Part shown: piece by piece, positions 3,163 to 7,292 of the stretch
Numbering within the stretch: the stretch's first letter is position 1
Layout: the number at the start of each line of letters is the position of its first letter
Assembly (NCBI GenBank): GCA_946625545.1
Contig: CAMOTC010000003.1
Coordinates: 1-42,307 of the forward strand
DNA: 42,307 nt
Reading direction: 5' to 3'
From: an uncultured Clostridia bacterium
Lineage (GTDB): Bacteria > Bacillota > Clostridia > Christensenellales > CAG-1252
Notes under the pieces: generated by a model
Databases searched by the model: none
Told to the model about the DNA's origin: nothing
What the model saw: the letters and a program-made list of their open reading frames with translations, nothing else
Position numbers and translations under genes: made by a program

Positions 3163-4648
3163 GCTTCTCTCCGTAATCGCGGCGAAGAGCGCCGATGAAA
3201 AGACCATTCGCGGAGGGATCACCTCCGTTGAATTGATGCGGAGAGTCGCGAAGGGCGTCTTGGACGCCTGTCCTCCCGAGGAAGGACGATCTTTGATCGT
3301 CAGCGGAAAGGGCGGCAACGGCGGTGACGGATATGCTCTCTATCTCCTGATGCGGGAAAGGGGGTTTGCCGTCGATCTCGTGGACTTCGGAGACAGCAAG
3401 CACGAAGGCGCAAAGGAGCTCCGCAGAGACTGCGAGAGTGATGTCAACCCCTTTAACGATACATTTGATTTTTCACAGTATAAGACGATCTATGACTGTA
3501 TCTTTGGGATCGGGCTTACGCGCCCGGCGTCAAGGGAGATGCTTGCCGCGATACGCAAGATAAACGCATCGAAAGCGCACGTCGTCTCGGTAGATATCGC
3601 GAGCGGGCTCTCTGCGGACAGCGGGATCGCGCTCGGTGACGCCGTTCACGCGGACGTCACGATCTGCGTGCAAGAACTGAAAGAAGGCTGTTTTCTGAAT
3701 GACGGCTTGGACTGTTCGGGCTCTGTCGGCGCTCTCGACGTCGGCATTTGCGAAGGGGAGGCTGACGCATTCCTCCTCGAGGAATCTGACGTTTTGGCGC
3801 TTTTCCCGCCTCTCAAACGAAACGTACATAAAGGCTCCCTCGGCAGGCTATCCGTCATCGCGGGGAGTGAGTCTTATTCGGGCGCCGCTGTCATCGCTGA
3901 GCTTGGCGCCGCGGCATTTGCGCTCGGGGACGGACTCGTCAAGCTCTGTATCCCGGAGTGTATCCTCTATCCTGTGATGAATAAGATCACGGAATGCACT
4001 CTCCTATCCTGTCCCTCTCGCGAGGGGCATATCGCTTACGACGTACCGACTATCGACAAGGCTATAAACGGTGCGAACGCGGTGCTTTTCGGAAACGGCG
4101 TTGATATCTCGGAGGACGGCAGGGCGATCCTACGCTATCTCATAAAGAACGTCAAAGTCCCTCTCGTGCTCGACGCAGACGGCATCAATCTGCTTGCAGA
4201 GGAGCCCGATCCCTTACGCGAGCGCTCCGCCGTGACAGTCTTGACTCCTCATCCGCGCGAGATGTCTCGCCTGATGGGACTCCCGCTTGATGAGATCCTC
4301 TCCGATCCCGTATCGTATGCGAAAGAGTTTGCCGCGCGCTACGGGGTGATCGTCGCGCTCAAGGGTGCTTCTACCGTCGTTACGGACGGCAGTGAGGCTG
4401 TGATCTCTATCTCGGGGAGTGCGGGTATGGCAAAAGGCGGTAGTGGAGATCTCCTCGCGGGATCGATCGCCGCGCTCCTTGCCGGCGGACGTGAAGCTAT
4501 GCTCGCGACGTACGGAGCCGCGTATATCCTCGGCGTTGCAGGGGAAGGTGCGGCGGAAGAAATGGGGGAATATTCCTCTCTCCCCACCGATACGCATCGG
4601 CATATCGCCTCCGTCGTGAAATATCTCTCTCAAAAAGCAGTAGAATAG
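3155..4648 (+). CDS. nnrE-nnrD: bifunctional NAD(P)H-hydrate epimerase / ADP-dependent NAD(P)H-hydrate dehydratase
   Basis: N-terminal YjeF domain (SGKGGNGGDGYALYLLM) and C-terminal carbohydrate-kinase-like domain (LDADGINLL, LTPHPREMSRL, GSGDLLAGSIAALLA). Confidence 0.93.
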   Translation: MVKLLSVIAAKSADEKTIRGGITSVELMRRVAKGVLDACPPEEGRSLIVSGKGGNGGDGYALYLLMRERGFAVDLVDFGDSKHEGAKELRRDCESDVNPFNDTFDFSQYKTIYDCIFGIGLTRPASREMLAAIRKINASKAHVVSVDIASGLSADSGIALGDAVHADVTICVQELKEGCFLNDGLDCSGSVGALDVGICEGEADAFLLEESDVLALFPPLKRNVHKGSLGRLSVIAGSESYSGAAVIAELGAAAFALGDGLVKLCIPECILYPVMNKITECTLLSCPSREGHIAYDVPTIDKAINGANAVLFGNGVDISEDGRAILRYLIKNVKVPLVLDADGINLLAEEPDPLRERSAVTVLTPHPREMSRLMGLPLDEILSDPVSYAKEFAARYGVIVALKGASTVVTDGSEAVISISGSAGMAKGGSGDLLAGSIAALLAGGREAMLATYGAAYILGVAGEGAAEEMGEYSSLPTDTHRHIASVVKYLSQKAVE

Positions 4649-4993
4649 TCAGTCGAAAAATCCGAGACTGATCAAAAGTGCGTCGTTGACTCTCTTCATC
4701 ATATCCAGGGGCAGGATACCGATCCTTTCGCGCAGCCTGCGCTTATCGATGGTACGGATCTGCTCGAGGAGGACGACGGAGTCCTTCGCGAGGCCGTAGT
4801 CTCCTGCGGATAGGGCGATGTGCGTCGGCAGTTTCGCCTTGCCCATCTGACTGGTGACGGCGGCTGCGATCACGGTCGGGCTATACTTATTACCGATATC
4901 GTTCTGCACGACGAGAACGGGGCGCACACCCCCTTGCTCGCTGCCCACGACAGGGCTGAGATCGGCATAATACAGTTCACCTCGCTTGATCAT
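4649..4993 (-). CDS. mazF: MazF/PemK-type endoribonuclease toxin
   Basis: [35 protein letters not shown] ... [13 protein letters not shown] is the MazF/EndoA signature. Confidence 0.93.
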
Positions 4994-5091
4994 CGCGTCA
5001 CCTCACTTCACCCCTTGACGCTCACTACATTGTATGTATCTCGGCGGTGGGGTGCCATAGATATCATTGCCTCGGGCGAAAAACTTTATAC

Positions 5092-5120
5092 TTGCAAGAT
5101 CATAGGATATATGGTAAAAT
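5092..5120 (+). promoter_or_regulatory. sigma-A type promoter of pilT
   Basis: TTGCAA (5092-5097), 17-nt spacer, TAAAAT (5115-5120). Confidence 0.55.
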
Positions 5121-5167
5121 AGAATATACTTAATTCACGCTCGGATATCCGAGAAAAGGGGAACCAC

Positions 5168-6226
5168 ATGGTAACGATCAAAGAACTACTGAAACTCGCG
5201 CTCCAGCAGAAAGCATCCGACCTTCATATCACCGTGAAGTCCGCTCCGGTGCTCCGCGTCTCGGGTACATTCCGCTATTTCAAGACCGCTCCGCTCACAC
5301 CCGAAGATACCGAGCAGATGTGCCGCGATCTCCTCGATGAGAATAATTGGCAGAAGCTCCAGAAACTCGGCGAAGTGGACGTCGCCGTTGCCCTTGGGGA
5401 AAACCGTTTCCGTGTGAACGCATTTCGTCAAAAAGGATGCTATGCGATCGCCATTCGTACGATCAATAGCGTGATCCCCTCCTTCCCCGCGCTCGGTCTC
5501 CCGAATACGATGCTCGATCTCTGCAATAAGAGCAGGGGTATCATCCTCGTCACAGGTCCGACCGGTAGCGGTAAGTCTACGACCCTCGCCTCGATGATAG
5601 ATTACATCAACAATCATCGTAGCGCGCATATCATCACACTCGAAGATCCTATCGAGTATTATCACAACCATATCAAGAGCATCGTCAATCAGCGTGAGAT
5701 AGGCAACGATACGCGCTCCTTTGCGGCGGCGCTCCGCGCCTCCCTTCGTCAGGATCCCGACGTCATCCAAGTGGGCGAAATGCGTGACCTTGAAACCATT
5801 TCTACCGCTATCACCGCTGCAGAAACGGGTCACTTGGTCATGAGCACCTTGCATACCATCGGTGCGGCGAATACCGTCGACCGTATGGTGGACGTCTTTC
5901 CCTCCTATCAGCAACAGCAGGTCAGACTGCAGCTCTCGATGGTGCTCGTAGCGGTTATCTCTCAGCAGCTTATCCCCAAAGCCGACGGCTCGGGGCGTGT
6001 CGCAGCTCTCGAGATCATGCTCAATCATCCCGCGATCAGCGCTCTGATCCGTGAAGGAAAGACCCATCAGATCGCAAATACCATCATGACCAATAGGACG
6101 AGCGGTATGATGCTGATGGACGACTCTATCGCAAATTATCTCCGTCAGGGCATCATTACGCAGGAGAAGGCGATCCTCTACTCCGTCGATCCCGATTATA
6201 TGCTCGCACAGGCAAAGAAGGGTTGA
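5168..6226 (+). CDS. pilT: type IV pilus retraction ATPase PilT
   Basis: GPTGSGKSTTLASM Walker A, EDPIEYYH, RASLRQDPDVIQVGEMRDLETI, AAETGHLVMSTLHT. Confidence 0.93.
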   Translation: MVTIKELLKLALQQKASDLHITVKSAPVLRVSGTFRYFKTAPLTPEDTEQMCRDLLDENNWQKLQKLGEVDVAVALGENRFRVNAFRQKGCYAIAIRTINSVIPSFPALGLPNTMLDLCNKSRGIILVTGPTGSGKSTTLASMIDYINNHRSAHIITLEDPIEYYHNHIKSIVNQREIGNDTRSFAAALRASLRQDPDVIQVGEMRDLETISTAITAAETGHLVMSTLHTIGAANTVDRMVDVFPSYQQQQVRLQLSMVLVAVISQQLIPKADGSGRVAALEIMLNHPAISALIREGKTHQIANTIMTNRTSGMMLMDDSIANYLRQGIITQEKAILYSVDPDYMLAQAKKG

Positions 6227-6312
6227 TAGGAAAAAATCGTAGATTTTCAGGAAAATATCCTTTTATTGCTTGACAAAGCACGGGTAAACCTTTACTATAG
6301 TCATTGTCATTC

Positions 6313-6395
6313 GCGATCATGGCGGAACAGGCAGACGCGTACGTTTGAGGGGCGTATGGGCAACCATGGGGGTTCAAGTCCCCCTGATCGCACCA
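6313..6395 (+). tRNA. tRNA-Leu(GAG), CCA encoded
   Basis: Acceptor GCGATCA/TGATCGC; anticodon arm TACGT-TTGAGGG-GCGTA (anticodon GAG); long variable arm TGGGCAACCA; T-arm GGGGG-TTCAAGT-CCCCC; ACCA 3' end. Confidence 0.93.
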
Positions 6396-6422
6396 AGAGC
6401 ACTTGCTTCGGCAAGTGCTTTT
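6378..6422 (+). repeat. direct repeat copy 1 (tRNA-Leu 3' end + CCA + terminator)
   Basis: GTCCCCCTGATCGCACCAAGAGCACTTGCTTCGGCAA(G)TGCTTTT; the same sequence with one mismatch recurs at 6541. Confidence 0.95.
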
Positions 6423-6423
6423 T
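6398..6423 (+). terminator. intrinsic terminator of tRNA-Leu
   Basis: AGCACTTGC-TTCG-GCAAGTGCT perfect 9-bp stem followed by a T run. Confidence 0.88.
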
Positions 6424-6434
6424 GCTTTGTTTTT

Positions 6435-6547
6435 GGGGGACTTGAACGGGTGGGGAGCGCCGACTGATAAAGGTGGATTAGCACGTTAGGCGGCGCCAAA
6501 GGCGAGCGTGCACAGCGTTTGCCACCTCGGTGAGATGGATGTCCCCC
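6435..6547 (+). other. tRNA-linked nested-hairpin element
   Basis: Nested pairings GGGGGAC(6435-6441)/GTCCCCC(6541-6547), AGGTGG(6471-6476)/CCACCT(6522-6527), GCACG(6481-6485)/CGTGC(6507-6511), CGCC(6494-6497)/GGCG(6501-6504); no supported ORF. Confidence 0.65.
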
Positions 6548-6585
6548 TGATCGCACCAAGAGCACTTGCTTCGGCAAATGCTTTT
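6541..6585 (+). repeat. direct repeat copy 2 (orphan tRNA-Leu 3' end + CCA + degraded terminator)
   Basis: 37 nt identical to 6378-6414, then G to A, then TGCTTTT; no tRNA 5' half precedes it. Confidence 0.95.
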
Positions 6586-6806
6586 AGTTTTTTTCTGCTT
6601 AGTTATATTGGATTTCTTTTCTCTTGTTATTGGATCACCGTAGGATGATCTGAGTCTATGGGGGAGGGCAGCACAAATCATCCCTAACTTCAATAGAGTA
6701 AAAAAGATAACCGGCATAATCGCTTATAAATCATAATAATCGGAGAAAAACGAAAGAGAAAGAAGCGAATTTGCGTCTTTTTTCATAATAAATACGAAAT
6801 TCGGTA

Positions 6807-6835
6807 TTGACAATAAATAACAATCAATATATAAT
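6807..6835 (+). promoter_or_regulatory. full-consensus sigma-A promoter of the prepilin gene
   Basis: TTGACA (6807-6812), 17 nt, TATAAT (6830-6835). Confidence 0.85.
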
Positions 6836-6866: not shown

Positions 6867-7292
6867 ATGTTTTATAATTTCAAAAAGAATAAGAAAGCTT
6901 TTACCTTGGTCGAGCTTATCGTCGTTATCGCGATCATCGCGATCCTCGGCGCTGTCGTCGGCGTGACGGTTTCTTCGTTTGTTGATAAGGCGAGAGTGTC
7001 CGCTGCCGAGTCTCCCCTCGATGATCTGAAGAAATATTGGGATACCGGAATTACTGATAATTTGACTCTTAGTGCGCTAGTCGCTTCGATTTTTGGCGAA
7101 AGCGAGAGGGCTAACTTCTCCTGCAGTTCCGATGCTTGGGGTACAAAAGTCAGCAAGCTCGGCACCATTAATATCTTCTATCATGATGATGCCAGTGGTG
7201 ATTACTACGGCAAACTCGCTGTTACGAGCGGTACCCCCGGTGAGGTCTCCTCTTCCAAGACTGCTCCGACCAATCCTGTTAAGTATAAATAA
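6867..7292 (+). CDS. type IV pilin-like protein with class III signal peptide
   Basis: MFYNFKKNKKAFTLVELIVVIAIIAILGAVVG; start chosen at ATG 6867 with SD GGAGG at 6856-6860, not the TTG at 6807 used in the ORF track. Confidence 0.87.
   Translation: MFYNFKKNKKAFTLVELIVVIAIIAILGAVVGVTVSSFVDKARVSAAESPLDDLKKYWDTGITDNLTLSALVASIFGESERANFSCSSDAWGTKVSKLGTINIFYHDDASGDYYGKLAVTSGTPGEVSSSKTAPTNPVKYK

Follow-up and report, generated by a model that had tools for sequence, protein, structure and literature searches.

The gene for tRNA-Leu(GAG) in an uncultured Clostridia bacterium is followed by a second copy of its own 3′ end, and the question that this locus raises is what the DNA between the two copies is. 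In the window, by which we mean the whole analysed stretch of 42,307 nucleotides, the 37-nt sequence GTCCCCCTGATCGCACCAAGAGCACTTGCTTCGGCAA occurs twice (6378-6414 and 6541-6577; chance expectation 0.00), and the extended direct repeat covers 54 nt at 93% identity with an offset of 163 bp. The repeated stretch consists of the last 18 nt of the tRNA, with its CCA, and the terminator. The second copy lacks the 5′ half of the tRNA, and the mismatch in its terminator stem is a G-to-A change. The earlier note on this DNA had described the repeat correctly and had offered two explanations, a scar of a lost element, in line with a classic attL/attR footprint, or a tiny non-autonomous element with tRNA 3′ ends as its boundary. 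It had missed an inverted copy of the T-arm, a conserved fold and numerous relatives.

The features of the locus are collected in Table 1. The head of the unit, GGGGGACTTGAAC, is complementary to positions 53-65 of tRNA-Leu(GAG), perfectly so over 13 nt, and the GC-rich DNA after it folds better than shuffled DNA (z -3.7). Farther along the window, a perfect consensus sigma-70-type promoter (12/12) at 6807-6835 stands upstream of a prepilin-like gene (6870-7289) with an N-methylation motif, whose neighbour is a type II/IV secretion ATPase gene (5168-6226).

Table 1. Features at the tRNA-Leu(GAG) locus, in window coordinates
Feature	Position	Strand	Basis or remark
Promoter-like site of the tRNA gene (TTGACA, 17 nt, TACTAT)	6270..6298	+	consensus scan 10/12
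Host gene tRNA-Leu(GAG)	6313..6395	+	ARAGORN
Direct repeat copy 1 (T-stem 3′ strand, acceptor 3′ strand, CCA, terminator)	6378..6431	+	
Terminator hairpin of the tRNA, stem of 12 pairs	6395..6422	+	
Complete repeat unit, 163 bp (terminator, head, core, tail)	6396..6558	+	163-bp spacing
Head, inverted copy of the tRNA T-arm; P1 5′ strand	6435..6447	+	exact inverted repeat with 6372-6384
Structured core	6448..6540	+	covariation; model R2 match, E 1.3e-21
Core stem P2	6448-6453 with 6522-6528	+	
Core P3	6457-6496	+	
Core P4	6497-6521	+	
Conserved 3′ internal loop of the core	6529-6540	+	
Tail, second tRNA 3′-end copy GTCCCCCTGATCGCACCA; P1 3′ strand	6541..6558	+	
Terminator copy 2, one mismatch in stem	6558..6585	+	

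We found that the window segment is a member of a family of non-coding elements of about 100-350 bp that lie directly behind tRNA genes. All follow one plan, with a head complementary to the T-arm of the element's own tRNA, a conserved folded core and a tail that copies the 3′ end of that tRNA. The core is marked by P2, by hairpins and by the loop motifs GAAC and GGCGTGATA, with GGAGC also present in the widespread form. A fold derived from 11 members has 32 pairs (P1 between head and tail, P2, P3 and P4), and 98.9% of its cells pair, compared with 36-53% in slid controls. Changes on both sides of a pair were seen at 12 of the 32 pairs in the 11 sequences and at 20 of 32 when 27 sequences were used. 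Furthermore, a first covariance model built without the window element and the more distant members recovered them (E 8.1e-18). A short form runs in the order head, GAAC, P2, one hairpin, CCGCCCCGGCGTGATA, variable stem, GGAGC and tail, and 13 of its 15 pairs covary among 51 distinct sequences; model R3, which represents this form, was built on an alignment of natural sequences. The conserved fold is supported by covariation, above controls. G-U versus A-C pairs, taken as an indicator of the strand, stood at 32 to 6 in one set and 15 to 18 in the other. In many genera the DNA between the two copies recurs as a conserved structured unit; it is not the debris that the scar of a lost element would have left.

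Other cores were also seen. Behind tRNA-Leu(CAA), a second core type, GAACGGGCGCAG...CTGCGCCCCGGCGTGTCGGCGAGCGAYAGCGAGAGTGCGAGC-AAGTCCC (L006, L009, L012 and L017; genomes G001, G011, G012 and G010), has the ends and loop motifs in common and occurs within the same arrays, with different inner stems. Further units of G060 (at L041 and L049), behind tRNA-Val(CAC) and tRNA-Leu(CAA), combine anti-T-arm heads and tRNA-3′ tails with unrelated cores, which suggests that further core types probably exist. At L100 (G264, about 4600-5700) and L106 (G197, 4974-5900), units have extra segments longer than 200 bp, either within the core or in front of the head, after the terminator, which indicates that the unit tolerates insertions.

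Covariance models located relatives in at least 48 genomes, from nearly all members of the window's genus, from many families of the order, from another family in the class and from families outside the class. A search with a 135-bp segment matched 11 of the 13 genomes of the window's genus and, at that sensitivity, no relatives in other genera of its family. Model R2 had matches in 44 of 396 genomes of the order and in three genomes of another family in the class, the weaker ones being the short form. With model R3, members appeared in three additional families beyond the class, and in one genus outside the class five of five genomes had them. The tRNAs followed by elements, in single or tandem copies, represent 20 isoacceptors and 10 amino acids. 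In the window's genus the host is always tRNA-Leu (GAG, CAA or CAG) at loci with a callable tRNA, and arrays hold one to three units, each ending in a copy of its own tRNA's 3′ end and usually a terminator. Copy number at orthologous sites in this genus is 0, 1 or 2: the site syntenic to the window's has two units in tandem in G003 and only a head remnant in G008, where the prepilin gene is still downstream, and no unit follows tRNA-Leu(GAG) in G005. The genome of the window itself has one copy (its assembly is 81% complete, with 1.45 Mb in 119 contigs), so that the search of this genome suggested by the earlier note returned a single element, with relatives numerous in other genomes. The comparison with relatives that it also suggested turned up copies behind other tRNAs and empty sites, and no integrase gene inside the arrays examined.

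Searches of Rfam release 15 at gathering and permissive thresholds gave no family match beyond tRNAs and one SAM riboswitch elsewhere on a locus. Phages gave no element match, and plasmids gave short chance matches only, a weak negative since the query was a hand-made composite of several members. No published description of the family was found in the literature searched, which excluded most subscription journals. The family, many carriers of which are metagenome assemblies, is apparently undescribed and of a kind unlike known systems.

The ends of the elements proved to be matched to the local tRNA. A same-strand tRNA lies at most 1.2 kb upstream of 59 of 77 distinct elements, and most of the 18 others are at contig ends; the few that are not include L078 and L110, behind a tRNA 3′ remnant, and L118, separated from its tRNA by what resembles an insertion sequence. 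At L118 (G969) insertion-sequence-like DNA stands between tRNA-Gly(TCC) and the element, with a transposase-like end upstream of the element, and the same arrangement is uninterrupted in G945. At L078, L110, L120 and L126 a tRNA 3′ half without its 5′ half directly precedes the element or remnant, as though the insertion of a genomic island into the tRNA upstream had displaced the 3′ half together with the element.

Tails are identical to the adjacent tRNA at 19-20 of 20 nt in most copies. One apparent tail from another tRNA, in G028, was rejected as a degenerate tail. Heads were compared over the nine bases facing tRNA positions 57-65 in 57 elements chosen more strictly, behind tRNAs of 20 isoacceptors and 10 amino acids. 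They matched their own T-arm at 7.96 of 9 positions and other T-arms at 6.00 of 9, a sum that 0 of 10,000 shuffles reached; the T-arm-like head built into the models could bias them towards typical heads, though not towards a better match to the own tRNA than to others. In 45 pairs of elements with cores at least 85% identical behind different tRNAs, 178 of 218 differing head positions follow the own tRNA and 18 follow the partner's, the pairs being non-independent in that related genomes and tandem copies supply several each. Some heads match their own tRNA poorly. In the window's genus the ends differ between leucine isoacceptors, being GGGGGAC...GTCCCCCTGATCGCACCA for GAG, GTGGGAC...GTCCCACCTTCGGCACCA for CAA and CGGGAC...GTCCCGTTTTCCGCACCA for CAG. 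In the family at large, near-identical cores stand behind different tRNAs, and the ends go with the tRNA.

These observations bear on the attL/attR interpretation. The 3′ ends of tRNA genes are classical integrase targets (PMC8371274), and the element could be a scar or satellite of an ordinary tRNA-targeting integrase element, the tail being attR and the core left-over attP DNA. The repeat does cover the known integrase target region from the T-loop to CCA (PMC8371274), and integrase genes lie 0.5-4 kb from some copies in larger genomes. Like tRNA-integrating islands and prophages, the elements show a direct repeat from T-loop through CCA, an intact tRNA and clean empty sites. However, an att scar would carry one attP core per tRNA family, whereas here one covarying folded core stands behind 20 isoacceptors with both ends fitted to each; unlike those islands and prophages, the elements carry no gene, measure only about 100-350 bp and have an inverted T-arm copy and a conserved fold. 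Several carriers, moreover, have a single tyrosine recombinase. We therefore disfavour this explanation and regard it as very improbable.

Sites with and without the element were then compared in one operon (Glu-Val-Asp-Gln-Lys-Lys-Gly-Arg-Thr-Leu-Ser-Asn-Met-Gly) that five genomes of a single genus share. Between Leu and Ser, G945, G1016 and G1058 have an empty spacer of 13 bp, and G969 and G1059 have an element there; between Ser and Asn, only G1059 has an element and the spacer of the other four is empty. In the Leu/Ser spacer, G969 is distinguished from G945 by one precise insertion, flanked by the 23-bp direct repeat CAAGTCCCGCCTTCCGCACCAAT. This difference reflects either insertion or precise deletion, as recombination across the 23-bp repeat would delete the unit equally cleanly. 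The core at the Leu site of G969 is 90% identical to the Ser-site core of G1059 and only 62% identical to its Leu-site core, so cores move between tRNAs. Several occupied sites, at His and Gly tRNAs, are common to related species, with partial decay in some, and many copies appear to have been passed on vertically behind one and the same tRNA in different species. With copies behind many tRNAs, variable arrays, and empty and occupied alleles, the earlier note's second proposal has held up, and we infer that the segment is a mobile element, small and non-autonomous, that is specific for the 3′ ends of tRNAs, a reading to which we give a probability of roughly 55%.

Recombination alone might produce part of this picture. 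An old structured element would then have been duplicated and homogenised through tRNA 3′ ends and cores with no dedicated mover, the arrays arising by unequal exchange, the empty sites by precise deletion and the matched ends by selection on P1. Direct repeats of 20-54 bp flank each unit, arrays consist of near-identical units, and neither a resident reverse transcriptase (RT) nor Cas1 is needed. By itself, however, this process does not explain the spread of one core to the tRNAs of 10 amino acids in several families, and it leaves the sharing of a core by Leu and Ser sites of sister species, rather than by orthologous Leu sites, without explanation. We consider it improbable.

If the elements are mobile, an enzyme may be sought in their carriers. 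Tyrosine recombinases (PF00589) were present in every genome tested, with a single match in G000, G107, G325, G060 and G074; several carriers have just one such enzyme, and non-carriers have it too. Reverse transcriptase was absent from 13 of 17 genomes tested, nine of them carriers. RT-driven mobility was rejected since RT is missing in most carriers tested, though an extinct or transient RT may have acted. Cas1 was found in 10 of 44 carriers and in 4 of 16 genomes without a detected copy, a group defined by stricter-filter searches that may contain missed copies; Cas1 or a casposase as mover was rejected, as it showed no association with carriage. No integrase gene was found inside the arrays examined, and units of about 100-350 bp lack coding room. 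Together, the results for tyrosine recombinase, RT and Cas1 revealed no resident mover.

The main rival to mobility is that the elements are regulatory RNAs linked to tRNAs: in read-through transcripts or operons, pairing of the head, either with the upstream tRNA's T-arm or with the tail of the element itself, would control tRNA folding, 3′ processing or termination. The ends would then co-evolve with the tRNA because the pairing is functional. Conserved folds and strong covariation agree with this. An invariant GAAC beside the head lengthens this pairing to include the GTTC that is universal in tRNAs, giving unbroken complementarity to tRNA positions 53-65; the tail does not provide this extension. 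In the predicted minimum-energy fold of a read-through transcript, the head is paired to the T-arm of the tRNA and the tail to its 5′ acceptor strand, so that the elements could have a regulatory role in tRNA transcripts. In addition, some elements are located within tRNA operons, and such copies have no T run between tRNA and head and should therefore be co-transcribed. In the window and at many other loci, however, a terminator separates the tRNA from the head, and a consensus scan found no promoter-like site within the window's element. Carriage is also patchy in its choice of tRNA, with many tRNAs and sister genomes lacking copies, and decayed copies are common. On balance, we think a regulatory function rather unlikely, though it stands ahead of the other rivals.

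The elements also differ from other systems that they resemble. Casposons target the 3′ ends of tRNA-Leu genes and produce duplications of 14-15 bp, which overlap only the last few tRNA bases (PMC6977970). Here the direct repeat at the tRNA 3′ end is longer, 20-54 bp from the T-loop (23 bp at the G945/G969 site), the units have no coding capacity, and Cas1 is absent in most carriers. An inverted copy of the T-arm, a folded non-coding core that is conserved, and the adaptation of one core to many tRNAs are all missing from both integrase elements and casposons. Integron cassette arrays likewise consist of short tandem units with palindromic repeats (attC) between them, but our units are non-coding and their repeats are tRNA 3′ ends. 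An attC site has GTTRRRY boxes; inspection by eye did not reveal this consensus, and the element repeat reads GTTCRANYC. MITEs, REP/REPIN sequences and small palindromic repeats are similarly short, non-coding, foldable, dispersed and non-autonomous, whereas our elements occur only at tRNA 3′ flanks, and their ends either complement the local tRNA or are copies of it. T-boxes and other tRNA-sensing RNAs share with them a part of the sequence adapted to a specific tRNA, but the elements lie behind tRNA genes, are predicted to pair with the T-arm rather than with the anticodon and NCCA end, and had no Rfam match.

A mobile element of tRNA 3′ ends could work as follows. It would enter at the T-loop/CCA region, keeping the tRNA intact and leaving a target-derived copy of the 3′ end on the far side; we propose that the tail always matches the local tRNA because it is derived from the target at insertion. 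Tandem arrays would grow and shrink through repeated insertion or through recombination between repeats, and the mover would act in trans. The head may be made anew from the target when the element inserts, or it may adapt later so that stem P1 is kept; imperfect heads such as that of the G969 Leu element allow for such later adaptation. A target-derived tail, an intact tRNA, precise empty sites and tandem growth all fit insertion at tRNA 3′ ends. More tentatively, and less likely than not, the family may be a new class of mobile element that renews both ends from its target tRNA whenever it inserts: the tail would be copied directly from T-loop to CCA, the head would be copied from the T-arm in inverted form, and the recognised part would be the conserved folded core, as RNA or single-stranded DNA.

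For genome annotation, tRNA 3′ copies of this kind can mislead the calling of tRNA fragments and integration sites. If the elements are mobile, an insertion chemistry or a trans-acting enzyme new to science would be implied; if they are regulatory, they would add a new level of control over tRNAs in Bacillota of the gut and the environment. Because copies occur in tRNA operons of complete genomes, either reading is testable.
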